A DNA stretch of 44,495 nucleotides from positions 1 through 44,495 of the forward strand of contig JAMONX010000045.1 of assembly GCA_027066435.1 (NCBI GenBank), given 5' to 3'. Under the pieces are notes generated by a model that was not told the DNA's origin, made no database searches, and saw nothing but the letters and a program-made list of their open reading frames with translations. Source of the DNA: Campylobacterales bacterium. GTDB lineage: Bacteria > Campylobacterota > Campylobacteria > Campylobacterales > QNZT01. Shown in pieces: positions 25,274-43,809 of this stretch (positions are counted from its first letter, which is position 1; the number at the start of each line of letters is the position of its first letter). Position numbers and translations under genes: made by a program.

Positions 25274-27088
25274 ATGCTAGAAAAACTCAAAGAGATAAGT
25301 AAACAAAGAAATTTAAAACTCAATAAAATAGAAAAATTAAAACCAAATAGAACTGTTGATGAAGCTATGGAAGTACTCAAAAAGTATGCAGTATCTGGTT
25401 ATGATTCAATTGATAAAGATGATGCAACACTCTTTTTTAAATATTTTGGTATTTTTGACAAAGTGAAGCCAAATGGTAAAAATAGCTTTATGCTTCGTAT
25501 ACGAATTCCCGGTGGTCAATTAACTCCAACTCAAGCTAAAAAGATAGGAAATATAGCCAAAACTTATGGTGGAGATTATATAGATATCACAACTAGGATG
25601 CAAATTCAGCTTCGATTTCTTCTTATTGAAGATTTACCAACTATTTTAGAAGAGCTTGATAGTGTAGGGATTACAACTTACCAAACAGGTATTGATAATC
25701 TTAGAAATATCGTCACAGACCCCTTGGATGGATTAAGTTATGACAATGTTATAGAGAGTATGCCTCTTATTGAACAGTTGCAAGAGATATTTTTAAAAAA
25801 GAGTGAGTGGATAGGTACACTCCCTAGAAAATTTAATACTTCTATAACTGGAAGCTATGCAAATAGATGTAATGTTTTTGCTCACGATTGTTGTTTTGTT
25901 TTGGCACAAAAAGATGGTATTTTTGGATTTAATCTCTATCTTGGTGGAAGAGTTGGGATATTAGCTAAAGATGCTAATGTTTTTTTAGAAGAGGGTGAAG
26001 TTGTAGAGTTTTTTACAGCACTTATAGAGATTTTTAAAGAGTATGGTTTTAGAGACAATAGAAATAAAAATCGCTTACATTTTTTTATCGAAGAAGTAGG
26101 CATGGAGAATTTAGTAACTCTTTTAAAATATAGATGTGATAAGGAGTTTAAATCAGCTGGGCAACAAATGGTAGAGTTGGAGCATTTTGATGCCAAATAT
26201 GGAAAAATAAAACAAAAAGATGGTCTATTTGCACTTCATGTAGTAGTTCCTGCTGGTATTTTTACAGGTAAAGCTTTGATTGAGGCTAGTGAAATTGCAG
26301 ATAAAGAAGATGGATCGATAAGGCTTAGTGTTGATCAAAATCTCTACATTGTAGGAGTAAAAGAGTCAAATATAGAAAAAATTCTCTCCCATAAGCTCTT
26401 CTCATCTTATAAAAATATAAATACCCCTTTTTATAATGATATGATTTCATGTTCTGGAAGTGATACTTGCTCATTTGGTGTAATTCGTGGAAAAATGGAT
26501 GCTTTAAAGATGTCAAAGTATCTAAGCCAAATGGTAGAGTTAGATGATGGAAAAGTTCGTATATACTGGTCAGCATGTGTAAAGGGGTGTGGAATTCACG
26601 ATTTAGGAGATATTGGGCTTTTAGGATGCAAGACAAAGATAGGTGATAAAACTGTACCAGGTGTTGATATCTCACTTGGAGGAAAACTTATAAATGAGAG
26701 CTTGGAAGCTAAACTTCTTTTAAAGTCAATACCAATAGTATATGCTAGATACTATATAGAAGAGTTGATTTTAGAGTATAAACGACTTAAAAAATCAAAT
26801 GAGAGTTTTGAAAAGTTTTTTGATAGAGTACTTGTAAATTACTCTTATGGTGCAATAGCTTTTATGATGAGTTTTAACTATATGATTAGCAGAAAGTTTG
26901 ACTTACCAAATAATAAAATCAAACTCGAAGAAGAGTCAAAAACATTCTCAAATGAGAGTTTAGAGATAGAGTATTTTGGTAGAGTTTTGAGAGAGAGGCT
27001 AAATCCGCAAATTGCATCTTTGGTTGATAAAATGTCATCTGATATAGGAAGTTTTTCAGAGCTTTTAGAAGATATAAATCAATTCTAA
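25274..27088 (+). CDS. siroheme nitrite/sulfite reductase, ferredoxin type
   Basis: This 604-residue cytoplasmic enzyme catalyses six-electron reduction of nitrite to ammonia or sulfite to sulfide. The first ferrodoxin-like half has GQLTPTQAKK and DYIDITTRMQIQLR. The 4Fe-4S/siroheme ligands are four cysteines: Cys393 and Cys399 (CSGSDTC) and Cys435 and Cys439 (CVKGC). Further features are NRCNVFAHDCC near residue 200 and a second ferredoxin-like half. There is no FAD/NADPH partner gene next door, so electrons probably come from ferredoxin. Nitrite and sulfite enzymes cannot be separated safely from sequence, and the context is uninformative. It is slightly longer than the usual 510-580 residues. 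AGAGG lies upstream of the ATG. Confidence 0.9.
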   Translation: MLEKLKEISKQRNLKLNKIEKLKPNRTVDEAMEVLKKYAVSGYDSIDKDDATLFFKYFGIFDKVKPNGKNSFMLRIRIPGGQLTPTQAKKIGNIAKTYGGDYIDITTRMQIQLRFLLIEDLPTILEELDSVGITTYQTGIDNLRNIVTDPLDGLSYDNVIESMPLIEQLQEIFLKKSEWIGTLPRKFNTSITGSYANRCNVFAHDCCFVLAQKDGIFGFNLYLGGRVGILAKDANVFLEEGEVVEFFTALIEIFKEYGFRDNRNKNRLHFFIEEVGMENLVTLLKYRCDKEFKSAGQQMVELEHFDAKYGKIKQKDGLFALHVVVPAGIFTGKALIEASEIADKEDGSIRLSVDQNLYIVGVKESNIEKILSHKLFSSYKNINTPFYNDMISCSGSDTCSFGVIRGKMDALKMSKYLSQMVELDDGKVRIYWSACVKGCGIHDLGDIGLLGCKTKIGDKTVPGVDISLGGKLINESLEAKLLLKSIPIVYARYYIEELILEYKRLKKSNESFEKFFDRVLVNYSYGAIAFMMSFNYMISRKFDLPNNKIKLEEESKTFSNESLEIEYFGRVLRERLNPQIASLVDKMSSDIGSFSELLEDINQF

Positions 27089-27963
27089 TTCTCTTGCTCT
27101 TCAACGCCAACAGCTCCAACTACGCTAGATATAGCTCTAAGTCTTGATAGCAGATCATCTCTCTCATCTACTAGAGTCTCTACTTGTTTTTGATGGTGTT
27201 TTTGTTTTTCTTCTAATATTTTTAATCGTTCTTGATCTGAATTTATACTGTTTTTAAGTGATTTATGTTCTTCATTTAAAGTTTGGTAGGTTTTATCTTT
27301 TGATTTGATAGTATCTTTTAATTTTTCTAATTCATCTATATATTGAGTGAGTTCTTTGTTTAGGATATTTGCTTTTTCTAACTGGGTGGTTTTCTCTTGT
27401 TTTATATTTTCTAGTTCAGTAATTTTTTGTTTTTGTTTTTGATTGATATTAGATAACTGTTCTATTTTGTTTTGTTGTTCTTGTTTTTTTATATTGAGGT
27501 TATCGATATCTTTTTCAAAGGTTTTGGTTGACATTTTATATCGCTCTATTTCATCTAAGTTACTGTTTTTTTCTGTTTTTAATATTTTCAAGAAAGCAGA
27601 TTGTTCATCAAACTCTTTGGTTAGTGATTCATATCTTGCTTTATATTTTTCCAGAGTCTTTAACTCTTCTAGTAGTTTTTCTCTTTGGTTATTTGAAGAG
27701 GTTAGTTGTGTTAGATTATTTGTGTTTTCTTGCTCTTTTTTTGCCAAGAGATTTTCTTTCTCTTTTAAAGCAATTGATAGTTGCTTGACTTTTGACATTT
27801 GCATCTCTAATTGGTTTTGTCTCTCTTTGAGTATACTCTTAATTCTATTTTTTTGTGTTCGCTCTTCATTTTCACCACTTTTACACAAAAATCTACCCAT
27901 AAGTAGCCCTATAATAGCTACTATTGATAATACTGCTATCAATTCATATTCTAAATTCCACAT
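27085..27963 (-). CDS. membrane-anchored coiled-coil protein
   Basis: This 292-residue protein has one N-terminal transmembrane helix (about residues 7-24, LIAVLSIVAIIGLLMGRFL) followed by ~230 residues of heptad-like coiled coil rich in Lys, Glu, Gln and Leu. The C-terminal segment LLSRLRAISSVVGAVGVEEQEN may be a short capping or interaction motif. It is the last gene of the leftward MscS-OmpA operon, separated by 1 bp from the OmpA-like gene. It may tether or scaffold that envelope complex. The overlap with the reductase stop is 4 bp. There is no enzymatic motif. Confidence 0.75.
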   Translation of the reverse strand: MWNLEYELIAVLSIVAIIGLLMGRFLCKSGENEERTQKNRIKSILKERQNQLEMQMSKVKQLSIALKEKENLLAKKEQENTNNLTQLTSSNNQREKLLEELKTLEKYKARYESLTKEFDEQSAFLKILKTEKNSNLDEIERYKMSTKTFEKDIDNLNIKKQEQQNKIEQLSNINQKQKQKITELENIKQEKTTQLEKANILNKELTQYIDELEKLKDTIKSKDKTYQTLNEEHKSLKNSINSDQERLKILEEKQKHHQKQVETLVDERDDLLSRLRAISSVVGAVGVEEQEN

Positions 27964-27964
27964 A

Positions 27965-28984
27965 TTAATATCCTATAACTTTAAATTCAATTCTTCGATT
28001 TTTAGCTCGTCCATCTTTTGTTTTATTATCTGCCAATGGTTCAAGCTCTCCTCTTCCTATAGCTTCCATATTCTTTAGTGCTACACCTTGTTCCAAGAGT
28101 TTAGATGCAACAGCTTTTGCTCTTTTTAGGCTTAGTTTTAAGTTTTTTTCATCATTTCCTACATTATCTGTATGTCCTATTATTTTGATATGAGCCTTGG
28201 GACACAAAGCCGTGATATCGCTTATGGTTTGAAATAGAGGGTTATTAGACTCTTCTATGATTGCTTTATTTGGTTTAAAATATATTTTTTGTTTTTCAAA
28301 TAAGGTGTTTAATTTTTCTTGACATATTTGAGCAGATGCATCTAGTGCAACAATGTGGCTATTTATGATAAAGTCTTTATTTTCAAAAAGAGCAAGTTCT
28401 TTTTCGAGAGATTTTTTTTGATTTGATTTTTTGATTTTACCAGATATATGAATCTCTTTATCAATTATATTTATAGATCCGACTTCAAAATTTTTAAGCT
28501 CTTTTGTCAAAACTTTGAGTAGTTGCATCCACTCTTTTGGTTCACCACTACCTATAATGGTTTTGTCAATAATTTGTGATTTGGTATATGAATCTTTTAA
28601 TTTTTTAAATAAAACTTTTTTAACTTCATAAGATGGTATATATCCTTTTAGTGTTAGTTTTTGATTAGTATAGTTTATATTCATAGTATACGGGGTGATA
28701 ATTCTTGGTGAAATTTGATCATTAACAAACCTTACTCCTATAATATCTTTGCTCAAAGTGATTGCTTTTTTATGTTCTTGCATATTAGGAGCAATACCGC
28801 TAATCATTACATCTCTCCCCTCAACTCTAACTGCGGCCCAATTGATATTGTTTTTTTGCAGGTTTTGTTTGACTCTTTTTGACAACTCCTGGGGAATTTT
28901 TTTGGAGTATTGTGGTACTGCTAGAAGTATGAGCAAGAAAATTAGAAGTAAACCAAAAAGTTGTATTAAGAAATTTTTACTCAT
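27965..28984 (-). CDS. BON/OmpA-domain envelope protein
   Basis: This 339-residue protein has a strong N-terminal transmembrane anchor (FLIQLFGLLLIFLLILLAV). Residues ~35-205 contain BON-like repeats (NINWAAVRVEGRDVMISG, NINYTNQKLTLKGYIPSYE, GSINIIDKEIHISGKI). Residues ~225-339 are a peptidoglycan-binding OmpA C-terminal domain with IKIIGHTDNVGNDEKNLKLS and the GRGELEPLADNKTKDGRAKNRRIEFKV core. The anchor-BON-OmpA order resembles mycobacterial ArfA. It would link the inner membrane to the cell wall. It overlaps the MscS gene by 8 bp and precedes the coiled-coil gene by 1 bp, so the three probably form one functional unit. Confidence 0.88.
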   Translation of the reverse strand: MSKNFLIQLFGLLLIFLLILLAVPQYSKKIPQELSKRVKQNLQKNNINWAAVRVEGRDVMISGIAPNMQEHKKAITLSKDIIGVRFVNDQISPRIITPYTMNINYTNQKLTLKGYIPSYEVKKVLFKKLKDSYTKSQIIDKTIIGSGEPKEWMQLLKVLTKELKNFEVGSINIIDKEIHISGKIKKSNQKKSLEKELALFENKDFIINSHIVALDASAQICQEKLNTLFEKQKIYFKPNKAIIEESNNPLFQTISDITALCPKAHIKIIGHTDNVGNDEKNLKLSLKRAKAVASKLLEQGVALKNMEAIGRGELEPLADNKTKDGRAKNRRIEFKVIGY

Positions 28985-30293
28985 TATTGCTTCCTACTTT
29001 TTTTATCTTTGTTAATTTTTTAGCTGGTGCATTTCCAAAAAGATTAGGAATCTCTTTGATATCAATCTCCTGTTTTGTATTTGGGAACTCTTTGACGTAT
29101 ATCTCTTGTTTTGCAGTTGGTAACTCTGTAATTGCAACTTCTTGTTTGATCCCAACATGCTCTATGATAGAAACTTCCTCTCGTTCTGGTAGTGAGATAG
29201 AGATATCTTCTTTGATAAATATTTTGTAAATTAACTCATTTAACTCTGGAAGTACCAATCCCTGATGCTGTGGTTTTCCAACCCAGCAATATAAACTAAA
29301 AGTAGCCATGTTTCGTTTAAAGGTAGAGAGTCTAACTTCCATAGTCTTGTCTTGTAAAATATATATCGAATCTTTGGCTGCTCTTAGCAATAGTTCCCTG
29401 ATATACTCAGGCTCTGTACCATACGCAACATTGACATCAAATCTTACTCTCATAGTTATATCATCTGCTGAGCTTTGATTTATCACTTCAGATCTGTCAA
29501 TGAGACTGTTTGGCACAATGATTTCAACATTGTCTATTGTGAAGATACGAGTATTTCTGATTCCGATATGTTTAACCGTTCCTGTTAAATTATTTTTGAT
29601 TTGGATGATATCACCAACACGAAATGGTGGATCAGTTAAAAGCAATATACCTGAGATAACATCTGCTAATGTTTCTCTCATCGCCATACCAATTGCCATA
29701 GCAAATATACCAGCAGATGCTAAAAGAGCTGTTATGTCAACATTCCATACAGAGAAAATTTGATACAAAATTGCTACTGAGAAAAACATAAGAACTGCAT
29801 TTTCAAAAAGAGGCAGAGTTGCTGGTTGTATTATCTTTGCATCTTCATTAGCTTCTTCTTGTTTTGAATATGCAATTTGTCTAAGTATGGTTTTTAGCAC
29901 TTTATATAAAAATAAACCTATAGCTAAAACTATGAGAGATTTCACAATAGCAGATGCAGCAAAGTTAACACTTTCATTAAGGGTTGAAGCGTGTACTGCT
30001 ATCAATAAACCAACATAAAAGATAAGTTGATAAATAAGTGTCCTAACAAATCCTACAAGGTCCTTAGCAAAAGGAAAATGACCAAACTTATCAAGTAATT
30101 TGAGTAAATACTTTGGTATATGACGACTTAAAAGCTTTGCCAAAACATATGCAATTATAACAATAAAAGCAACACGAAGATAAGTATAATCACTAAATAA
30201 ATCCCATATTTGTTCAAAAAGCGGAAAAATAAAACTAAATTGATTTTTTAACCACTCTAAAAGTTGGCTTAGATTATCCACTGAAGAATCCAA
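28977..30293 (-). CDS. MscS-family mechanosensitive channel
   Basis: This 438-residue protein has four to five transmembrane helices, with the pore-lining TM3 and beta-domain GIFAMAIGMAMRETLADVISG-(I)LLLTDPPFRVGDIIQI and the conserved IVPNS motif. The ~70-residue C-terminal extension is unusual: it holds imperfect repeats of the form xKQEIxIxExPN (KQEVAITELPTAKQE, KEFPNTKQEIDIKEIPN). The chosen start is TTG at 30293; no strong ribosome binding site is visible there, so the N-terminus is uncertain. It heads the leftward operon with OmpA-BON and coiled-coil genes and is divergent from the binding-protein/cyclase operon. The family role is release of osmolytes under membrane tension. Confidence 0.9.
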   Translation of the reverse strand: MDSSVDNLSQLLEWLKNQFSFIFPLFEQIWDLFSDYTYLRVAFIVIIAYVLAKLLSRHIPKYLLKLLDKFGHFPFAKDLVGFVRTLIYQLIFYVGLLIAVHASTLNESVNFAASAIVKSLIVLAIGLFLYKVLKTILRQIAYSKQEEANEDAKIIQPATLPLFENAVLMFFSVAILYQIFSVWNVDITALLASAGIFAMAIGMAMRETLADVISGILLLTDPPFRVGDIIQIKNNLTGTVKHIGIRNTRIFTIDNVEIIVPNSLIDRSEVINQSSADDITMRVRFDVNVAYGTEPEYIRELLLRAAKDSIYILQDKTMEVRLSTFKRNMATFSLYCWVGKPQHQGLVLPELNELIYKIFIKEDISISLPEREEVSIIEHVGIKQEVAITELPTAKQEIYVKEFPNTKQEIDIKEIPNLFGNAPAKKLTKIKKVGSNNE

Positions 30294-30459: not shown

Positions 30460-31452
30460 TTGATACAATTTTTTTTAAATAGAGTTATTCAAATATTTAT
30501 GGTCACTATTTTGCTATTTACTGTAAGTTATGCTGACAATAAATTATCAACTGGTATTATTTCTTATACTCCAGTTGAAGATAAAGATAGTGTTTATGGT
30601 GTATTAAAATGCAAAGGTTCCACTAGAGTTGGAAGATTGTTAAATGTTTGGGTTCCTTCATTTGTAGAGATGTATCCTCATATACAAAGTGAACTCTCAT
30701 TTACAGGGACAGGTCATGGTATCAGTTCTCTCATAGATGGCTCGGCAAATATCGCAGCATCTAGTCGTAAAATTAAAGATTTAGAGATGGAAACTTTTTA
30801 TAAAGCAAAAGGTTATCCTCCAACAGAGATGAAAGTTTCTTTAGATGCTTTGGCATTGTATGTAAATAGGTTAAATCCTACACCATCTATCACACTAGAA
30901 CAGCTTGATGCTATATTCTCATCAACAAGAAGACAGGGGCTTGAAGCGATTGTTAATTGGAAACAGTTAGGCTGGGAAGATAAAAATATAACTGTGCATC
31001 TTTTTGCAAAAGAGGCAGGGGCTAGAGGTTTTTTACAAAAACATGTATTGCTCGGTGGGGAGTATACAACTCAAAATGTTGTCAATGATAAACATTTGAC
31101 TGCATTAAGTGTGACTGATGAAATTGAAAAGGACAAGTATTCTATAGGGTTTGGGGCGATTGGTATAGATAATTTTAAAGTTAAAATGCTTCCTATCGCA
31201 AAACGAGAGAGATATCCAGAATATGCACCAAATACTAAAAATATTAAAAATGAAAAATATCCATTAACGCGATTTTTATATATCTATATGGATGTACCTC
31301 CTGATAAACCTATACCAAAGCTTTTATATGAATTTTGTAAATTTATGCTCTCAAAAGAGGGACAGACGATAGTATTAAAAGATGGTGGAGTGCCACTTAG
31401 CCCAAGGTTGATTGGGATTGAGTTAGCAAAGATTCAAAGAGAGGGTATTTGA
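30460..31452 (+). CDS. PstS-like periplasmic binding protein
   Basis: This 330-residue exported protein has the signal segment VIQIFMVTILLFTVSYA. The fold matches the phosphate/oxyanion PBP-like II family: VLKCKGSTRVGRLLNVW, the FTGTGHGISSLIDGSANIAASSR ligand loop, a middle segment LDALALYVNRLNP and the typical C-terminal FCKFMLSKEGQTIV. The start is TTG, with CAAGGAAA 7 nt upstream. No PstC, PstA or PstB gene is nearby; instead it runs into a transmembrane cyclase with a 1-nt overlap (TGATG). A sensory role is therefore more likely than uptake: the loaded protein may contact the periplasmic domain of that cyclase. The ligand is not proven. Confidence 0.85.
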   Translation: MIQFFLNRVIQIFMVTILLFTVSYADNKLSTGIISYTPVEDKDSVYGVLKCKGSTRVGRLLNVWVPSFVEMYPHIQSELSFTGTGHGISSLIDGSANIAASSRKIKDLEMETFYKAKGYPPTEMKVSLDALALYVNRLNPTPSITLEQLDAIFSSTRRQGLEAIVNWKQLGWEDKNITVHLFAKEAGARGFLQKHVLLGGEYTTQNVVNDKHLTALSVTDEIEKDKYSIGFGAIGIDNFKVKMLPIAKRERYPEYAPNTKNIKNEKYPLTRFLYIYMDVPPDKPIPKLLYEFCKFMLSKEGQTIVLKDGGVPLSPRLIGIELAKIQREGI

Positions 31453-33575
31453 TGAAAAGAGGTAATATAAAATTATTTCATAAAGTGAGTATAAAATCTA
31501 AGTTTTTAATGATGATACTTAGTACGGCGATGGTATGCATAGCAGTCATTGGATTTCAAGGGCTTCATTATGGTAAAGATTCATTGACAAAGAGTATGTA
31601 TGACCATTTGACATCTTTAAAATCTGCAAGGACTCAACAGATTGAGAGTTATTTTCAAGATAAACGCTCTTTGATGAAGACTTTTTCAACAGAGCATACA
31701 ATCATAGATGCAATGAGTGAATTTTCTGCTGGTTTTAACCTTCTTGATATCTATAAAGTGGATATAGATAAAAATGCTAGTATGAGATTAAATAATTTTT
31801 ATGAAAATAGTTTTGTTGAAATGTTAAATGAAAACTCTATACAGGAGTATAGTCATACAAGTTTGGTTCCAAAAAAAGAGGTTGTGAAGTATTTGCAATA
31901 TAATTATATAGTTAATAATCCAGTAGAAGTTGGAAAAAAAGATTTATTAGAATCAGCCGAAGATAAAAGTTATTATACTGAAGTGCATCAGAAATTTCAT
32001 CATACATTAAGAGATATCGTCAAAAATCAAGGTTTTGATGACCTTTTCCTAATAGATTCTAAAAATTTAAATATCGTTTATAGTGTTTCTAAAGAGGTTG
32101 ATTTTGGGAGTAGTTTAAAAAATGGAAAATTTGCACAAAGCTCTTTGGCAAAAGTTGTTAAAGATGTTATCAGTCATCCTGATAAGGGTATAGTGCGGGT
32201 TGTTGATTTTAAAAACTATGAACCTTCATATAATACACCACAAATATTTTTTGCAGTACCTATATATAAAGGGAGTGAATTTTTAGGAGTATTAGCTACT
32301 CAAATTACTGTAGATGCTATTAATAATATTACTACTGGATATAAAAACTGGAGTCATGATGGCTTAGGAGAGAGTGGAGAAGTTTATCTAGTTGGTAGAG
32401 ATTATACAATGCGTTCAGATGCAAGAAAAATTATAGAGCAGCCTGAGGTTTATTTTAGCGATATTAATAAAATAGGTTTAGATAAAGATAGTATCAAATT
32501 GATTACTGCCATTAGAAGTACCGTGCTTAATCAATTAGTAAGAAGTGAAGCTGTTAAGAGAGCAACAGAGGGAGATGATGGCACAGTGATTACTCGAAAC
32601 TATTTGGGAGAAAAAGTTTTAAGTGCTTATGCTCCTTTAAATTTGGAAGGATTAGATTGGTCAATTATCGCTGAAAAAGAGATTAGTGAGGCAGAACAAC
32701 CAATTAAAGAGTTTCAAAAAGCTCTTTTAATCTCTTCTACAATCTTGGCAACATTGATAACATTTTATGCTATTTGGCTAGCTTATAGTTTTTTAGCACC
32801 TATAAATAGTATGGCAAATGGTGTAAAAAATATCATTAATACTGATAAATTTACAAAAATCAATCTTAGTCGTGATGATGAGTTTGGAGAGTTATCTAAC
32901 AATATAGATAAGATGATTGATACCATAAAATCACAGTCAAAAGAGATTGCAAATAAATCTAAAGAAAATGATGCACTTTTACTCAATATCTTACCTCAAA
33001 GCATTGCACAAAGAGTAAAAGCTGGTGAAAAAGATATAGCAGAGAAAGTTTCAAATGTTGCTGTACTTTTCTCAAATTTAAAAGGTTTTGATAACCTATC
33101 TCAAGGACTTAGTTCTAAAGAATCTATAAAATTACTTAATGAAATTATTAATGAATTTGACAATCAAGCACAAAAATTTGGTATAGAAAAAATTACTACT
33201 ATCGGTGACTCTTATATGGCAGCGAGTGGTTTAATGCAACCTCGTTTGGATTATGCGAGAAAGCTTGCAGAGTATGCTCATAAAATGTTTTTTGTTATAG
33301 ATGATTTTAATCGCCGCCATGCTTCAAATCTTCAATTAGTTGTCGGAATTGATAGTGGAGAAGTGATGGCTGGAATTGTGGGAGAACATAAATTTGTCTA
33401 TGATATATGGGGAGAGTCTGTAAATCTTGCCAATAATATTTCTCATCAAGCAAGTCTGGGAACTATAAGAGTAAGTCAAAGTATCTATGAACAGCTTATC
33501 AACAAGGATAAGTATAAAAAATGCTCAGGTGAAATATTAACTTATGAAACAATACCAAAAGATAGAGTGAGTTAA
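31452..33575 (+). CDS. Cache-HAMP class III nucleotidyl cyclase, atypical active site
   Basis: The protein has 707 residues from the ATG at 31452, preceded by GAGGG. It has TM1 at about residues 19-36, a ~380-residue periplasmic Cache-like sensor (FDDLFLIDSKN, FAVPIYKGSEFLGVLATQI, WSIIAEKEI), TM2 near 425-447, and a HAMP domain to ~495. A signalling helix with LLNILPQSIAQRVKAGE leads into a class III cyclase domain at about 534-690. Residue by residue: the first metal Asp is Asn542 (LFSNLKGF), the second metal Asp586 is present (TIGDS), the purine-selecting Lys/Glu position is Thr582, Asp651 (DIWG) is present, Asn658 is present and the transition-state Arg is Asn662. It may be inactive, slow or use another nucleotide. 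It is followed by a cNMP-domain channel. Confidence 0.9.
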   Translation: MKRGNIKLFHKVSIKSKFLMMILSTAMVCIAVIGFQGLHYGKDSLTKSMYDHLTSLKSARTQQIESYFQDKRSLMKTFSTEHTIIDAMSEFSAGFNLLDIYKVDIDKNASMRLNNFYENSFVEMLNENSIQEYSHTSLVPKKEVVKYLQYNYIVNNPVEVGKKDLLESAEDKSYYTEVHQKFHHTLRDIVKNQGFDDLFLIDSKNLNIVYSVSKEVDFGSSLKNGKFAQSSLAKVVKDVISHPDKGIVRVVDFKNYEPSYNTPQIFFAVPIYKGSEFLGVLATQITVDAINNITTGYKNWSHDGLGESGEVYLVGRDYTMRSDARKIIEQPEVYFSDINKIGLDKDSIKLITAIRSTVLNQLVRSEAVKRATEGDDGTVITRNYLGEKVLSAYAPLNLEGLDWSIIAEKEISEAEQPIKEFQKALLISSTILATLITFYAIWLAYSFLAPINSMANGVKNIINTDKFTKINLSRDDEFGELSNNIDKMIDTIKSQSKEIANKSKENDALLLNILPQSIAQRVKAGEKDIAEKVSNVAVLFSNLKGFDNLSQGLSSKESIKLLNEIINEFDNQAQKFGIEKITTIGDSYMAASGLMQPRLDYARKLAEYAHKMFFVIDDFNRRHASNLQLVVGIDSGEVMAGIVGEHKFVYDIWGESVNLANNISHQASLGTIRVSQSIYEQLINKDKYKKCSGEILTYETIPKDRVS

Positions 33576-33577
33576 CT

Positions 33578-35023
33578 ATGGTAGACTTACTTAGTACTTT
33601 ACCAGTTGAGTGGAAAACATGGGGATTACTTATCATATTTGGTTTTCCTTTATCTATTGTTATCACTGGTGAAATTCTTTTATACTTAGAAAAAAAAGAG
33701 TCCCGACTTACTTGTATTGTTCATAATGTTAGAAATATACTGCTTCCTGCTTTAGTTACATATTTAATTTTTAGTAAAATTATGAAGTTGGGAGATGACT
33801 CTATCTTTCTTAAAATATCAGCAACACTTTTTTGGTTGATATTGATTTATACCTCTTTAAAGTTTGTAAATATTTTAGTTTTTTCAGATGCATTGCCAAA
33901 GAGTGTTCGGGCAAGATTACCTAAGTTGTTGATTGATTTTTTACGAACATTTTTGGTTTTACTCGGTGCTGCAATCATCGCTTCAAATGTCTGGGGTGCT
34001 GATTTAGGCAGACTTTTAACTGCACTTGGGGTAGGTTCTGTTGTTTTGGGACTTGCTTTGCAAGATGTATTAGGCGGTTTGTTTTCGGGTATTGCGTTAC
34101 TTTCATCTAAGCCGTTTACTACTGGTGATTGGATAGGTATAGGAGATATGGATGGACGGGTAGAGAGTATCGATTGGCGGGCTGTATCTTTAATAAATTT
34201 TGAAGGTGATTTGGTTGTAGTTCCAAACTCCGTAATTGCAAAAGAACGGTTTAAAAACTACTCTAGACCAAATCCTATACATAGAGAATCAGTACCATTT
34301 GATATATCATTTGACGATCCACCAAACAAAGTAAAACAAGTTTTACTAGAAGCGGCTATGGATACAAAAGGAATACTTAGTGAACCTGCACCACAAGTAG
34401 TGCTAATTTCCTATGATGAATTTTCTATTCGATATGAGGTTCGATATTTTATCAATAATTATGCAAATATCGCATCTATATATGATAAATTTATCACAAA
34501 AATATGGTATACCAACAAGCGATATGGCATAACTTTTCCAACTCGCTCTCATGAGGTGTATAACTTTGAAGGGGATAAGGGTGAAGATAAAGATAGCTCA
34601 AAAGTTATCTATAAAGAGTTTAAAAACTTAAAAGTCTTTTCAGTGCCAGATGCACATCTGTTAATATTAACAAAACATTGCAAAATTGATGATTTTGGTG
34701 TAGGAGAATGCATCTTACAAAGAGGTCTTGTGACAGAGTATTTTTATGTGATTTTAGATGGTATAGCCTTAGAAAGAGTGGAAAATAAAAATGCTAAAGA
34801 GCTATATGAAAATCGCTTAAAACGAGGTGATTTATTTGGTTTATCCTCATTAGTTAGAAAAGAGGCGAGTTTGGTATCTGTATCTGCCCTTTCTGATTTG
34901 CGTGTAATAACTATCGAAATAGAAGCGATGAAAAACCTTCTACAAAAAAATCCTCAAGTTGCTGAATCTCTTGAAAACATGGTAAATACCAGTGAAAAGA
35001 AAATTGCTAAAAGTATGTTTTGA
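33578..35023 (+). CDS. MscS channel with C-terminal cyclic-nucleotide-binding domain
   Basis: This 481-residue member of the MscS superfamily belongs to the bCNG type. Helices lie near residues 15-35, 52-68, 78-103 and 120-137. The pore helix and beta domain run LLTALGVGSVVLGLALQDVL, SKPFTTGDWIGI and VVVPNSVIAKERFKN. Residues ~345-465 are a cNMP-binding beta-roll (GECILQRGLVTEYFYVILDG, NRLKRGDLFGLSSLV, ASLVSVSALSDLRVITIE). The phosphate-binding cassette is atypical: the usual Glu in FGE is Leu422, the Arg position appears to be Lys428 and the loop is several residues short. Known bCNG channels are gated by cAMP rather than tension. The gene starts 2 bp after the cyclase stop, so the pairing of messenger synthesis and reception is strongly suggested. 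Confidence 0.9.
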   Translation: MVDLLSTLPVEWKTWGLLIIFGFPLSIVITGEILLYLEKKESRLTCIVHNVRNILLPALVTYLIFSKIMKLGDDSIFLKISATLFWLILIYTSLKFVNILVFSDALPKSVRARLPKLLIDFLRTFLVLLGAAIIASNVWGADLGRLLTALGVGSVVLGLALQDVLGGLFSGIALLSSKPFTTGDWIGIGDMDGRVESIDWRAVSLINFEGDLVVVPNSVIAKERFKNYSRPNPIHRESVPFDISFDDPPNKVKQVLLEAAMDTKGILSEPAPQVVLISYDEFSIRYEVRYFINNYANIASIYDKFITKIWYTNKRYGITFPTRSHEVYNFEGDKGEDKDSSKVIYKEFKNLKVFSVPDAHLLILTKHCKIDDFGVGECILQRGLVTEYFYVILDGIALERVENKNAKELYENRLKRGDLFGLSSLVRKEASLVSVSALSDLRVITIEIEAMKNLLQKNPQVAESLENMVNTSEKKIAKSMF

Positions 35024-37576: not shown

Positions 37577-39346
37577 TTAAAAAGCTTTAATTCCTTTTAG
37601 GCTTTGGTCTATCAACACTAAAAATGGAGATTTTATAACTCTTATATCATATTTTTTATGTTGGTTTATCCAGATAAGTAGTGAGTATTTTGTAACAGTT
37701 GCATCTATATCTGTTATGATTATTTGAGCCTTTTTTTCCAAACTTCTTATATGTGGGATGGTACTGAGGTTCAATGCACAAAGTATAGTTTTTTGTATGA
37801 GTTCGTACTCTACTACATCTTTGGCAGAAAAAGGAACCTCAATTCGCCTAATCTGATTTTCAAGAGAGTGATTTATAAAAGAGTCATTGATAAATTTAGA
37901 GTTTGGAACAGTTATTCGCATATGATTGCTTGTCAAAATTGTGATGGAACGAAAATCCATATCATCTACAACACCAGTTATCTTATCATTAATCTCAATA
38001 TGGTCTCCAATTCTAATTGAGCGGTCAATTTTTATCAAAATCCCCATAGCATAATTTGAGATAAAGCCTTGAAGTCCAAGTATTATCCAAAGTAGTATCG
38101 CACCGATTATGATAAATATAGTATGGATATTTAGCCCAATAGATATAAGTGCTATAAAAAATGTAGCTAGTATTATTATATAATAACCGCTATTTGCTAC
38201 CATTCTTGCTGTTGAGAGGCTTTTGATTCTATTTGATTTTCTAAATTTTTCTATAAATTTTTTGTAAAGTAGGGCTAAAATAGATCCAATTATAAGAATA
38301 ACTATAAATGTCAAGATTGTTTTTATGGAAAATGCATTTTCTTCATAGATAAAGATAGTTTTATTAATACTGTGCAAAATATAGTTTATTAGATTTTCTA
38401 CTCCTACTTGTGTGGATGCAAGAGCTACTTCAAACATGTCAAATTTTGCATATCCCATTTTATTTAAAAGTTTAGAGATAGTATTGAATTTTTCTTTTTC
38501 CAAATCACTTAATGTTTTAATATCATCTTCAATCATTTGTAACGATTTTAAAAATTCATTTTGATTCTTCTCTTTAATCCATTTTAGTGAAAGTAGAATT
38601 TGTGCATCTAATTTTTTTGTAAATGTATCATCAGTTCTTTTTTGTAACTTTTTTTCATCTTTTATAATCTGCTTTTGAGCTTTTTTATTTCTTAAAGCTT
38701 CACTATCTTTATCGATATTTAGTAAGAGATTTTCTCTGTTTAAATCACCGATTTTTATCTCTTCTTGTTTGATTATCTTTTTTGAGTTTTGCTCCTTAAA
38801 ATTGACCCGTAAAAGGAAGTGTTGAAATATTTTGAACTCTTTGTTAAAAATTTCTTCATAAAGTTTCAAAGATTTTGTAATTTTATTTTGTGATATTTTA
38901 TAAAAAGCATATTGTAATTGATTTGCTAATAGTGTTTTATTTGCATCTTGGGGGAGAGTTTTTTCTATAGTTGTCTTTAATTCAAAAAGTTTTTTTTGAA
39001 TTGTTATATTCTTATTTTCAAGCCTATCTATTTCACTTTCTAGCTCACCTAAAGAGTATAACGCTTTTAAATACTGAGTTTGGGTGATAGAGCTTTTTTG
39101 CAGGGTTATAGTTTCAAATGATTTAGTCTCATCTTTTATTTCATAGAGTCTTTTTATCTTTTCTAAAGTTGACTTTTCATAACTGATTGTTTGGGAAGTT
39201 TTTAGCTTTTGTACAATTTCACTATTTATCTCTTTTTCAATATCTAAGAGGTATTGTTGTACATTTTCTCCCTCATATAGTCTTATATCTACTTTTGCAC
39301 AAAAGGACGCAGTTATAAAAAACAGAAGAAGGATTAATTTTTGCAT
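37577..39346 (-). CDS. large MscS-family channel with periplasmic coiled-coil domain
   Basis: This 589-residue protein has a signal peptide (LILLLFFITASFCA). Then comes a ~300-residue Lys/Glu-rich helical periplasmic region, as in MscK/KefA-like proteins though shorter. Transmembrane helices near residues 335-358, 380-400 and 405-430 lead to the MscS pore and beta domain (ILGLQGFISNYAMGILIKIDRSIRIGDHIEI, DMDFRSITILTSNHMRITVPNS). A short cytoplasmic alpha/beta domain ends the protein. It differs from the two other MscS proteins in the window in both pore sequence and accessory domain. It is probably tension-gated. It is preceded by the amidohydrolase gene with a 40-bp gap and could be part of that transcript. 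Confidence 0.88.
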   Translation of the reverse strand: MQKLILLLFFITASFCAKVDIRLYEGENVQQYLLDIEKEINSEIVQKLKTSQTISYEKSTLEKIKRLYEIKDETKSFETITLQKSSITQTQYLKALYSLGELESEIDRLENKNITIQKKLFELKTTIEKTLPQDANKTLLANQLQYAFYKISQNKITKSLKLYEEIFNKEFKIFQHFLLRVNFKEQNSKKIIKQEEIKIGDLNRENLLLNIDKDSEALRNKKAQKQIIKDEKKLQKRTDDTFTKKLDAQILLSLKWIKEKNQNEFLKSLQMIEDDIKTLSDLEKEKFNTISKLLNKMGYAKFDMFEVALASTQVGVENLINYILHSINKTIFIYEENAFSIKTILTFIVILIIGSILALLYKKFIEKFRKSNRIKSLSTARMVANSGYYIIILATFFIALISIGLNIHTIFIIIGAILLWIILGLQGFISNYAMGILIKIDRSIRIGDHIEINDKITGVVDDMDFRSITILTSNHMRITVPNSKFINDSFINHSLENQIRRIEVPFSAKDVVEYELIQKTILCALNLSTIPHIRSLEKKAQIIITDIDATVTKYSLLIWINQHKKYDIRVIKSPFLVLIDQSLKGIKAF

Positions 39347-39386: not shown

Positions 39387-40364
39387 TTAAATTAGTTTTT
39401 TGTAATTACTAAAAATATCACTCTCTTTGTCAAAAAACTCTAAAATAATTTTAGTATATCGATCAAATGGATTTTTCTCATTTGATATCTCAAGACTCTT
39501 TTTAATTGATAATCTGTGTGTATTTAAAACAGTAGTAAATGGAACTGGAAAATCAGTACCAAATAGTAGTTTATTGTGTATATCTTTTTGTTCACTTAGA
39601 TGCATTAGTACTTTTGCTCTTACGGGTGTGAGTAGGGCGGAGATGTCTGCATATAGGTTATCATGCGTTTTTAGCATCTTTAAAAGTTGAAAATATTCAT
39701 CATTGAAGTTTTTAGGATTTTTAGATAGGGCTTTAAAAATCCTAAAAGGCTCATAGCTAAGTGCCATGTGAGCACAGACTGTATTTACCCCTATCTCAAC
39801 TGGATTATAGAGCATTTCTATGCTTTCACACTCTTTATAGGAGTGTACAGAACTTTCATTTCCGATGTGAATTATGAGTGGTAGATCGTGATACTTTAAC
39901 TTTTCAAAGTAGGGGATGTATTGTTTTTCTCTTGTATCAACTCCCCAGTAGTTTTGCAAAAATTTAGCACCTTTAAACCCAAGAGCGACATATTTGTCAA
40001 TTAGATCTAATGCATCTGGTCGTTTAGGGTTAATAGAAAAAAATGGAATAATATAATCTTTGTTTTGTTGATAGAGTCTGTTTACATCCTCATTTGTAGC
40101 ACAGACTGTTGCATCGCAGTGTGTAGTTTCTCCTCTATTATCTACTCTAGCATCCACACCAAAGAGTACAATTTTTTCTAAAAACTTAGACTCTTTGACA
40201 TTTTTAATTAAAGCTTCACAATATGCTTTGTATGGATTTTGCATTAACTTCTTTGGATGCATCCCAAGTTGGGATGCAAAAAAGATTATCGCTACTTTGT
40301 CATAAAGTCTATCAAATTTTACATCTGAACTTAAAAGATGTGTATGAAAATCAACCGTTTTCAA
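39387..40364 (-). CDS. metal-dependent amidohydrolase (TIM barrel)
   Basis: This 325-residue cytoplasmic protein of the amidohydrolase-2 type has VDFHTHLL at the N-terminus (metal ligands His7 and His9), PLIIHIGNESS in the middle (third His), VCAHMAL (fourth His) and LLFGTDFPVPFTT with the catalytic Asp. FKGAKFLQNYWGVDTR is also typical of the fold. Related enzymes hydrolyse or decarboxylate small ring compounds, and the substrate here cannot be inferred. It overlaps the Aas-like gene by 14 bp and so belongs to the MerR-Aas operon. A link to lipid metabolism is possible but not shown. Confidence 0.82.
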   Translation of the reverse strand: MKTVDFHTHLLSSDVKFDRLYDKVAIIFFASQLGMHPKKLMQNPYKAYCEALIKNVKESKFLEKIVLFGVDARVDNRGETTHCDATVCATNEDVNRLYQQNKDYIIPFFSINPKRPDALDLIDKYVALGFKGAKFLQNYWGVDTREKQYIPYFEKLKYHDLPLIIHIGNESSVHSYKECESIEMLYNPVEIGVNTVCAHMALSYEPFRIFKALSKNPKNFNDEYFQLLKMLKTHDNLYADISALLTPVRAKVLMHLSEQKDIHNKLLFGTDFPVPFTTVLNTHRLSIKKSLEISNEKNPFDRYTKIILEFFDKESDIFSNYKKLI

Positions 40365-43300
40365 GACTTAACTTGGTTGCAATCTTTTTAGCCATTTTTA
40401 GATCAGTTTTACCACTTCCAAGCTTTGGCATCTCTTCTAGGAAAAAGTATTGACTAGGTATCATTAGTGGGTTAAGTTTAGAGTTTTTGATAAGAGATTT
40501 TAACTCTCTCTCTTCTATCTCGCCGTGATAAAGAAGTACAACTTTTTCACCTTTTTTGCTATCTGGTGCATTTGCTGCAACTATATCGATTTCAGATGGC
40601 AATATTGCTCTTATCTCCTCTTCAACCGCACCTAAAGATATCATTTCTCCAGCAACTTTAGCAAATCTGGAGTATCTATCTACTATTGTTAAAAACCCAT
40701 CTTTATCAAGTCTCCCTTTATCTCCTGTGACATACCATCTTATATCATCTTTTTCGATAATTACCTCTTTGGTTTTTTCCTCATCTCCAAGATACCCTTT
40801 CATGATTTGCGTTCCACCTGTGATTATCATTCCTTCTTCTCCAATTGGTAGTTCTTCATAAGTTTTTGGGTCTACAATCTTACAAGTAGATCCAGGAAAA
40901 GGCATACCAACAGTCCCTTTTTTATGTCCAATTTGAAGGTTCCAGTATTTGGTATTTAATGCATCTGGTATATTTGCACTGATTCCAGGAGTCGCTTCAG
41001 TTGCTCCATAAGCTTCATAAATCTCTAAGCCAAACTTTTGCATAAATTTATTTCTAACATCTTCTGAAACTTTTTCAGCTCCACCAACAACAAAACGAAT
41101 ACTCTCAAACATATGAGGAATAAGTTTTCTATTTTTTGCATAAATTCTAAAAAATGTTGATGTTCCAAAAAGAAGAGTTCCTTGATAAGCCGCTGTAAGT
41201 TTACCAACTCCCTCTGCATCTGTAGGGTCTGGTTGGCAGATAAAAGGTACACCCTCAATCAATGGTGCTAAGGTAGAGACAGTCAATCCAAAAACATGAA
41301 ATGTAGGTAAAGTTGCCATTATGACATCATCCTCTTTGAGATTTAGTACATTGCAAAACTGTTTTATATTTCCCATAAAGTTTTTATGAGTGAGTTCTAT
41401 CCCTTTTGGAGTCCCTTCACTTCCACTACTAAATAGTATCGCTGCTGTGTCATTTATATCTACTTTTGCTATCCACATTTTTTCTAACACAAAAGTTGGC
41501 AATATCTTCATCAATGCCCATCTTTTTAAGACATCGCTCTTTTTTATATCTTTTTTTATATCTTCTACAAATATCACATTTGCAGTGTTTAGTGACTCCT
41601 CTATATCCATACCTTTTGCTTTTAATTTTATTAAAAACTGTTTTGATGTATAGATAGTTTTAATTTCAGCCTTTTTTATTGCACCTTCTAGGGATGAAGC
41701 ATTTGCTGTATAGTTTAGATTTACTATTGTTTTTCCAAGCATTAAAGTAGCTAGATTTATGATAGTTCCTCCCACAGATGCTGGCATAACAATTCCGATA
41801 TTTTGCTCATCTTTTGATAACACTTCTATCTGGTCTGCAAAAGTTCTTACCACTGCTACAAGTTTATGGTTACTTAGTTTTGTTCCTGTTGCATCTGTAA
41901 CAGATAGTTTTTCTCCCTCTCTTGCAGCTGTTTTTAACCAAGAGTTTGGAAGAGGTTTTAGTGTGTCTACATACTTGCTCCAAGACTCTATTTGAAGTTC
42001 AAATATTACTTTCTTCAGACCGCTCGCTGTTGTAGTGCTTGGAAGTGCTTTTCCAAATGAGACACTAACATCACGAACATTTTTCTTGACATTTGCTTTT
42101 TGTTTTTTATGAGCATAAGAGAAACGACTTCCCCAAAGTCCACGTATATAAAAAGGAATAATAGGCACATCACTATCTTTTAGAGCTAATTCAAAGCCTT
42201 TTGAAAATGTGTTTAAATGTCCATTTCTTGTGATTGAGCCTTCAGGAAATATAGCGACAATTTTCCCCTCATCTAACTTTTCTCTGATGGCTTTAAATGC
42301 CTCTTTACTAGCTTTAGTAGATATAGGGATGAGTCCAAAAAATTTAAAAATAGGTTTTAAATACCACTTCTCATATATGGTTCGCTCAATGACAAAACTA
42401 ACTCGCCTTGGACTTGCTATTGAGAGTACCATCCAATCAATCCAGCTTACATGATTTCCTAATAGTAAAGCCGCTCCATCTTTTGGAAAGTTTTTAATTC
42501 CATGCGTACTTAGGTTGTATCTACAAAGTGCTATCACTTTAAATATAAAACGAAGCAAAAATTGAGGTAGTGTAATAAAAGCATATAGAGCTCCTATGCC
42601 AATCATAACAAGCAAAAATGTAAAAATAGAGCTTGTAGAAACCGCAAATATAGAGACAAACATAGTTAATAGCAAAAATGCCAACATCAAAAATGATTGT
42701 ACAAAGTTGCTTGTTGCCATCACACGACCAAGTTCATGCTCTTTTGCTCTATATTGAATAAGAGAGTTAAGTACAACTATCAAAAAACCACCAAATATAC
42801 CAAAAAGAAGAAACTCAAAGCCTAACATATAGACAGATGAACTATTTGCAATCATAGCAATTGAAACTGCGACACCAATAGCTCCAATAGGAAGTAGCCC
42901 AGTTTCAATATACTGGCGAGATAGACGCATAGTAAAGATAGAACCTATCGCTATTCCAACACCAGCTAGAGACATAATCCCCTGTGCTACAATAGTATTG
43001 TGTATATTTGCAACCTCTTTTAAATGTACTCCAAAAATTGCTATCACAACTTGAGCAACTGCATAAAATAGTGCTAAACCTATGATACTTTCAAAAATAA
43101 CTCTATTTGAAAATGCCAAAGAGAGATTCTCTTTTAAGTAACCAAAACGGAGATATTTCTCTTTTTTTATCACTAATTCTTTATCTCCTTCAACATATGA
43201 AGGAACTCTTTTTGTAAGTTGTATCTGAATCCAAGCAAGAGCTACAAGGACAAGAGTTATTGGCCAAATATTACTCATAATGTCTGAAGTTGTGATCTCT

Positions 43301-43809
43301 TTACCATCTATAAGCCACTCAAAAGCAAATGAAAACAGAAGTGAGCTAAGAAGTATAGCTATGATAGTTACCGCTTGAACTATACCATTTCCCTCAGTCA
43401 ATCTCTCTTTGCCAAAAAGCTCTTTTATCAGTCCATACTTTGCAGGAGAAAATATAGCACTTTGAAGTGCAAGTAAGAAGGTAAAAAATAGGGCAATTTT
43501 AAATAGTCCAAAAAAGAAACTTATAGCTATAAAGATAGTGATGATAAAAGCTAGTTTTGAGGATTGTTGCAGTATCCAATTTTTTCTAAACCTATCACTT
43601 AAAAACCCAGCAGGTGTAAAAAACATTACAAAAGGTAAAAGAATCAAAGCATTTACAAGAGCTGTTAGTATGATTTGGGTTGAGCCGTCATAAATTTTGA
43701 AGATGGTATTTTGTAGGAGAATTTTATCCCCTAAATCAACAATTGCATTTATAAAGATAACAATAACAAAGGGCATAACACCTTTTAATTTTAGTAACTC
43801 TTTTATCAT
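40351..43809 (-). CDS. Aas-like fusion: MFS flippase, PlsC acyltransferase, acyl-ACP synthetase
   Basis: This is a 1152-residue three-domain inner-membrane protein. Residues ~1-415 form a 12-TM MFS transporter resembling the lysophospholipid flippase LplT. Residues ~430-610 form a PlsC-type acyltransferase with the NHVSWID motif (His453, Asp458) and FPEG (521-524). Residues ~635-1140 form an AMP-dependent ligase with the loop LFSSGSEGTPKG (792-803), YEAYGATEATPG and the C-terminal Lys motif PKLGSGKTD. Together these would import lysophospholipid, activate a fatty acid on ACP and re-acylate the lipid. In E. coli these are two proteins (LplT and Aas); here they are one chain, a fusion also known in other bacteria. 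It overlaps the MerR gene by 4 bp. Confidence 0.93.
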   Translation of the reverse strand: MIKELLKLKGVMPFVIVIFINAIVDLGDKILLQNTIFKIYDGSTQIILTALVNALILLPFVMFFTPAGFLSDRFRKNWILQQSSKLAFIITIFIAISFFFGLFKIALFFTFLLALQSAIFSPAKYGLIKELFGKERLTEGNGIVQAVTIIAILLSSLLFSFAFEWLIDGKEITTSDIMSNIWPITLVLVALAWIQIQLTKRVPSYVEGDKELVIKKEKYLRFGYLKENLSLAFSNRVIFESIIGLALFYAVAQVVIAIFGVHLKEVANIHNTIVAQGIMSLAGVGIAIGSIFTMRLSRQYIETGLLPIGAIGVAVSIAMIANSSSVYMLGFEFLLFGIFGGFLIVVLNSLIQYRAKEHELGRVMATSNFVQSFLMLAFLLLTMFVSIFAVSTSSIFTFLLVMIGIGALYAFITLPQFLLRFIFKVIALCRYNLSTHGIKNFPKDGAALLLGNHVSWIDWMVLSIASPRRVSFVIERTIYEKWYLKPIFKFFGLIPISTKASKEAFKAIREKLDEGKIVAIFPEGSITRNGHLNTFSKGFELALKDSDVPIIPFYIRGLWGSRFSYAHKKQKANVKKNVRDVSVSFGKALPSTTTASGLKKVIFELQIESWSKYVDTLKPLPNSWLKTAAREGEKLSVTDATGTKLSNHKLVAVVRTFADQIEVLSKDEQNIGIVMPASVGGTIINLATLMLGKTIVNLNYTANASSLEGAIKKAEIKTIYTSKQFLIKLKAKGMDIEESLNTANVIFVEDIKKDIKKSDVLKRWALMKILPTFVLEKMWIAKVDINDTAAILFSSGSEGTPKGIELTHKNFMGNIKQFCNVLNLKEDDVIMATLPTFHVFGLTVSTLAPLIEGVPFICQPDPTDAEGVGKLTAAYQGTLLFGTSTFFRIYAKNRKLIPHMFESIRFVVGGAEKVSEDVRNKFMQKFGLEIYEAYGATEATPGISANIPDALNTKYWNLQIGHKKGTVGMPFPGSTCKIVDPKTYEELPIGEEGMIITGGTQIMKGYLGDEEKTKEVIIEKDDIRWYVTGDKGRLDKDGFLTIVDRYSRFAKVAGEMISLGAVEEEIRAILPSEIDIVAANAPDSKKGEKVVLLYHGEIEERELKSLIKNSKLNPLMIPSQYFFLEEMPKLGSGKTDLKMAKKIATKLSLENG

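Follow-up and report, generated by a model that had tools for sequence, protein, structure and literature searches.

In P. aeruginosa, PstS is a binding protein that, when loaded with Pi, docks on the chemoreceptor CtpL (PMC4926252). Among ion channels, the bCNG members of the MscS family end in a CNBD, which comes after the pore and the beta domain (Caldwell 2010; Malcolm 2012; both cited in PMC4560390). The CNBD-fold domain of the KCNH channels does not bind cNMP and gates through contact between domains (PMC7515569). A canonical class III cyclase requires three pairs of residues: two Asp that bind metal, Lys and Asp for the substrate, and Asn and Arg for the transition state (PMC4174876; PMC4886424). 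The metal-binding aspartates have been described as indispensable (PMC4886424), and a C2 homodimer without them is inactive (PMC4174876).

The operon examined here, located in a 44,495-nucleotide stretch of DNA (hereafter, the window), resembles each of these systems in part. As in the PstS–CtpL pair, a PstS-type periplasmic binding protein (PBP) is the proposed input to the periplasmic domain of a membrane receptor. However, a cyclase-like domain next to a channel forms the output, in place of the chemotaxis signalling domain of CtpL; moreover, the PBP has no adjoining transporter and can be of the TAXI type, and the docking is putative here. The channel shares the domain order of the bCNG channels, but the canonical Glu and Arg are missing from its CNBD, and the channel is encoded together with a PBP and a putative pseudocyclase receptor. 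Three class III receptor cyclases from Sinorhizobium/Ensifer plasmids (L074–L076) have the same dCache-HAMP-cyclase architecture over their full length (29–31% identity); all six catalytic residues are intact in them, while the first metal Asp is missing from the operon receptors. The KCNH channels (EAG/ERG/ELK), whose CNBD-fold domain is free of cNMP regulation, provide a possible working analogy only: they are unrelated voltage-gated K+ channels with an intrinsic peptide ligand and a PAS partner. The reading developed below, which we hold with about even confidence, is that the operon encodes a receptor that is fed by the PBP and controls the neighbouring MscS channel through a pseudocyclase domain.

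Structure of the operon

The genes and domains of the operon are as follows.

30460..31452, + strand: PstS-like PBP, 330 aa, TTG start, N-terminal signal-peptide-like stretch (PF12849, 5e-27)
31452..33575, + strand: dCache-HAMP-class III cyclase-like membrane receptor (putative pseudocyclase), 707 aa from ATG 31452 (Pfam)
31602..32672, + strand: dCache sensor domain of the receptor (PF02743, residues 52-408 in TTG numbering)
33042..33536, + strand: class III cyclase-fold domain of the receptor (PF00211, 144.4 bits)
33578..35023, + strand: MscS-family channel with C-terminal CNBD, 481 aa (Pfam)
34703..34951, + strand: CNBD of the channel (PF00027, 2.4e-10); Leu422 and Ser431 replace the canonical phosphate-cassette Glu and Arg

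The first-pass annotation had placed genes for a PBP, a Cache-HAMP class III cyclase, and an MscS-CNBD channel at 30460-35023, and this location and content were borne out, as were the 1-nt overlap between the PBP and receptor genes and the 2-bp gap between the receptor and channel genes. Its proposal that they form a single operon is supported; Pst transporter genes are, as it had stated, absent from the 44-kb window. The receptor likely starts at ATG 31452, which has one base in common with the PBP stop codon (TGATG). In the receptor, Pfam matches were found to dCache_1 (1.7e-13), HAMP (6e-4, under Pfam's cut-off), and Guanylate_cyc (5e-41), and in the channel to MS_channel_2nd (3e-20), MS_channel_3rd (2e-11), and cNMP_binding (2e-10). 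The MscS domains and the C-terminal CNBD are thus both present in the channel (PF00924, PF21082, and PF00027, all over the cut-off). A promoter scan gave no excess over shuffled sequences, and no terminator-like site was found.

Conservation and distribution

Conserved adjacency was the check that the first-pass annotation had set beforehand, and the three-gene order was found in four other genomes (G416, G423, G539, and G508); in G534 and G795, the PBP and receptor genes were found side by side. In searches around the window, a PBP gene was located directly 5' of the same receptor gene at six further loci. Including the window, the PBP–receptor pair therefore occurs at seven loci, and the channel gene comes next at all five that have enough contig; in G534 and G795, the contig ends inside the receptor gene. 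In the four complete copies, neighbouring genes are 0 to 3 bases apart or overlap slightly, the exception being an 85-bp gap between the PBP and receptor genes in G539. The receptor is 57–70% identical to those of G416, G423, and G539 and 37% identical to that of G508; the corresponding values for the channel are 66–71% and 43%. This recurrence of the gene order indicates that the arrangement is beyond chance.

G423, G539, G508, G534, and G795 were obtained by searching several hundred genomes in the vicinity of the window's genome and of the matches. When 84,980 genomes were scanned for close relatives of the channel, the sole locus obtained was L044, an Epsilonproteobacteria MAG, whose three genes show 49, 70, and 71% identity. 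A full-length channel match was found in none of the 21 other genomes of the window's family, five of which belong to the same genus. The operon is conserved yet rare and patchy. The open reading frames inspected behind the Cache-HAMP matches were mostly chemoreceptors, together with some kinase-like proteins.

The binding protein and its ligand

The window PBP has a PstS-type fold, the best PDB matches being 4PQJ and 4OMB (1e-49); it scores 154.8 bits against NCBIfam TIGR02136, under the cut-off of 206.6, and is 42–50% identical to the PBPs of three other loci. Two families of PBP were found at the seven loci: PF12849 in the window, G416, G423, and G539, and PF16868 (TAXI/NMT1_3) in G508 and G534 according to Pfam, with a protein in G795 that looks alike. 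In the receptor tree, the three TAXI-type loci fall into one clade (support 1.0), so that a single switch of PBP family suffices to account for the distribution, and many such changes were rejected. The sensor input looks exchangeable between PBP families. Since the receptor is retained with either of two unrelated PBP families, the PBP is suggested to be the ligand input. The first-pass proposal to this effect is likely correct, in view of the switch of PBP family between receptor clades and the PstS–CtpL precedent (PMC4926252); putative indirect sensing of the CtpL/PstS type, in which a loaded PBP would bind the periplasmic domain of the receptor, is supported only by the operon linkage and the PBP-family exchange. 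The identity of the ligand as phosphate is uncertain, because the phosphate-binding SGT loop is absent from the window PBP, which has AGA where its homologues in G416 and G423 have SGT and SGS, respectively.

The cyclase domain of the receptor

The class III cyclase fold of the receptor was confirmed by PF00211 and by a structure prediction in which this region resembles cyclase structures (TM, by target length, up to 0.77). The prediction, made with five sequences, had a mean pLDDT of 47, and the cyclase domain was its only usable part. The catalytic residues were compared among the five full-length receptors, given below in the order window, G416, G423, G539, and G508. Three positions have lost the canonical residue to different extents.

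33075..33077, + strand: first metal position (Me1), codon of Asn542 in the window; N/V/V/V/S, Asp gone in 5 of 5
33195..33197, + strand: substrate-specifying Lys position, codon of Thr582 in the window; T/T/T/T/K, Lys gone in 4 of 5
33435..33437, + strand: transition-state Arg position, codon of Asn662 in the window; N/R/H/R/A, Arg gone in 3 of 5 and retained only in G416 and G539

The other three positions are largely kept: the second metal (Me2) Asp (Asp586 in the window) in all five (D/D/D/D/D), the second substrate residue, Asp (Asp651), in four (D/D/D/D/N), and the transition-state Asn (Asn658), also in four (N/N/N/N/D). Because of these retained residues, nucleotide binding or residual activity is possible. 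In addition, the Thr of the GFT motif is replaced by an acid in the four close copies (D/D/E/D), which might serve as a relocated metal ligand; G508 has Ser there, as it does at the first metal position.

The metal Asp is likewise missing from mammalian C2 domains, which function with a C1 partner. However, one class III cyclase (PF00211) was found per genome in the window genome and in G416, which leaves the receptor no partner for a heterodimer. In the window genome, the search for cyclases, which covered classes I and III, found no class I enzyme. Among the four close copies, the cyclase domain is 65–69% identical, as against 51–70% for the dCache domain. The cyclase domain is thus as conserved as the sensor, which indicates that it is maintained under constraint and is not decaying. 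With the first metal Asp gone from every full-length receptor, the production of cAMP or cGMP assumed in the first-pass annotation is not supported. The residues point to a domain that is probably non-catalytic, and ordinary cAMP or cGMP is probably not the link between receptor and channel.

The channel and its CNBD

In the phosphate cassette of the channel CNBD, the Glu position is occupied by L/L/L/L/M and the Arg position by S/S/S/S/N (same order of loci); both canonical residues are absent from all five. The view that a degenerate CNBD is a trait specific to this operon was weakened by a control set of ten plasmid MscS-CNBD homologues, in which the Arg was lost in eight and the Glu in four. 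Judging from these residues, canonical cNMP binding by the channel CNBD should not be assumed, and gating by a cyclic nucleotide through this domain, as had been proposed, finds no support. An inactive cyclase and a CNBD that binds no nucleotide had been named in the first-pass annotation as the outcome that would speak against its model; the residue losses go part of the way to that outcome at the level of sequence.

The pore helix of the channel is 95–97% identical to those of three loci, and the second transmembrane helix of the receptor is 81–92% identical among the four close copies, above the conservation of the dCache domain. Such values would fit contacts within the membrane, although they do not prove them. 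The channel structure prediction (3 sequences; mean pLDDT 40) was too poor for contacts or a pocket to be read from it.

Possible mechanisms

From the features described above, we infer the following course of signalling. The PBP would capture a periplasmic solute and, once loaded, dock on the dCache domain of the inner-membrane receptor. From there, the HAMP segment would carry the signal to the class III cyclase-like domain, a dimer that may have ceased to cyclise nucleotides. This domain, by direct contact or through its nucleotide occupancy, would shift the gating or the tension threshold of the MscS channel, which would receive the signal via its CNBD-fold domain lacking the canonical cNMP ligands. 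Contact, nucleotide occupancy, and a non-canonical product are all equally compatible with the sequences. A more specific form, which we put forward only tentatively, is a PBP-gated channel free of any second messenger, in which an exchangeable PBP drives the dCache-HAMP receptor, and the cyclase domain of the receptor, now a non-catalytic coupling domain, gates the MscS channel by contact with its nucleotide-free CNBD fold. Contact at the CNBD is attractive in view of the KCNH channels, where a CNBD-like domain works by contact and without cNMP (PMC7515569).

No description of this operon or its parts was found in the literature, subscription papers being outside the search. Bacterial receptors fed by binding proteins are numerous, but the searchable papers describe no route that leads from an external solute to a channel of the MscS family. 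If the proposed mechanism is true, it would explain how MscS-CNBD channels lacking the canonical cNMP residues can be controlled and what a maintained class III pseudocyclase does, and it would provide a small three-gene model of ligand-to-channel coupling.

Several other explanations were weighed. The pseudocyclase may be a receptor for uncyclised ATP or GTP that integrates the energy state of the cell with the periplasmic ligand in controlling the channel. The four close copies keep the purine-side Asp, the transition-state Asn, and the Me2 Asp while Me1 and the Arg drift, which speaks for such a receptor; however, G508 retains a different set (K, N, and D), so that the pocket is not uniformly preserved. 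We regard this explanation as improbable. It is similarly doubtful that the domain is a divergent but active cyclase, or another nucleotide enzyme, which uses GF[D/E] as a relocated metal ligand and makes a non-canonical product read by the altered CNBD. The coupled changes of Asp to N/V and of GFT to GF[D/E] in four loci are in its favour, as is the deviation of both the cyclase domain and the CNBD from the canonical residues, and migrated catalytic residues are known in pseudoenzymes (PMC10211241). Nevertheless, both acids are absent from the G508 receptor, which has S at the two positions, and the Arg and Lys have been lost as well.

The model of the first-pass annotation, in which ligand binding makes the cyclase produce cAMP or cGMP and the nucleotide opens the channel in the manner of bCNG channels, appears quite unlikely. 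It accords with the operon order and domain content, with the designation of MscS-CNBD channels as bacterial cyclic nucleotide-gated in the literature (references in PMC4560390), and with the Me2 Asp, substrate Asp, and transition-state Asn retained by the window receptor. However, the first metal Asp is lost in five of the five receptors, the Lys in four, and the Arg in three; metal-binding aspartates are described as indispensable (PMC4886424), and a C2 homodimer without them is inactive (PMC4174876); the CNBD ligand residues are missing from all five channels, and the genome has no second class III cyclase to complement the receptor. Mere co-transcription, with the channel as an osmotic valve and the receptor signalling elsewhere, would suit the further MscS genes nearby, the lack of a channel next to the Sinorhizobium receptor homologues in the two inspected regions with the fullest annotation, and the osmoprotectant genes beside Azospirillum MscS-CNBD genes, but it is very unlikely given that receptor and channel are adjacent at all five loci whose contig is long enough, even where identity falls to 37% for the receptor and 43% for the channel.

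Neighbourhood of the operon and related loci

Divergent from the operon, three genes (27085-30293, - strand) adjoin it in the window.

28977..30293, - strand: second MscS-family channel, divergent neighbour (Pfam; 40% identity to the adjacent gene in G423)
27965..28984, - strand: BON-OmpA protein (PF00691, PF04972), 8-base overlap with the MscS gene; 44% identity in G423 and 49% in G416
27085..27963, - strand: coiled-coil protein with an N-terminal hydrophobic helix, no Pfam family; 40% identity in G423 and 43% in G416

In G423, this trio lies immediately 5' of the operon, all six genes being on one strand. In G416, it is on a separate contig, and the 284 bp 5' of the PBP gene show no MscS start. 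Among 81 genomes, the OmpA/BON gene was found in four, the receptor in seven, and both in three (p 0.0016 assuming independence, which is untrue of related genomes). We rejected the trio as an obligate part of the system, because G539, G508, G534, and G795 contain no close match to the OmpA/BON gene, and G446 has the trio genes with no receptor match. The trio is probably a frequent neighbour and not an obligate part of the operon. It is tight, recurs in G423, G416, and G446, and looks like an envelope-spanning channel module. The C-terminus of its MscS protein (28977-30293, - strand) contains repeats of about 11 aa such as TKQEIYVKEFPN, and more of them occur in the G423 and G446 copies (L099:428-1873, L123). 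A third MscS-family gene is located at 37577-39346 (- strand), so that three lie within about 11 kb.

Outside the window, Azospirillum MscS-CNBD genes with the canonical CNBD residues (L077:5860-7332, L078:5860-7356) adjoin genes for the synthesis of the osmoprotectant NAGGN, a hint that these channels serve osmoadaptation. In Sinorhizobium sp. B11 (L128:1642-4778), a gene with a cyclase domain and an MscS-CNBD gene are divergently oriented. Finally, the window encodes at 40351-43809 (- strand) a 1152-aa protein that, by inspection, is an apparent fusion of a transporter, an acyltransferase, and an acyl-activating part.
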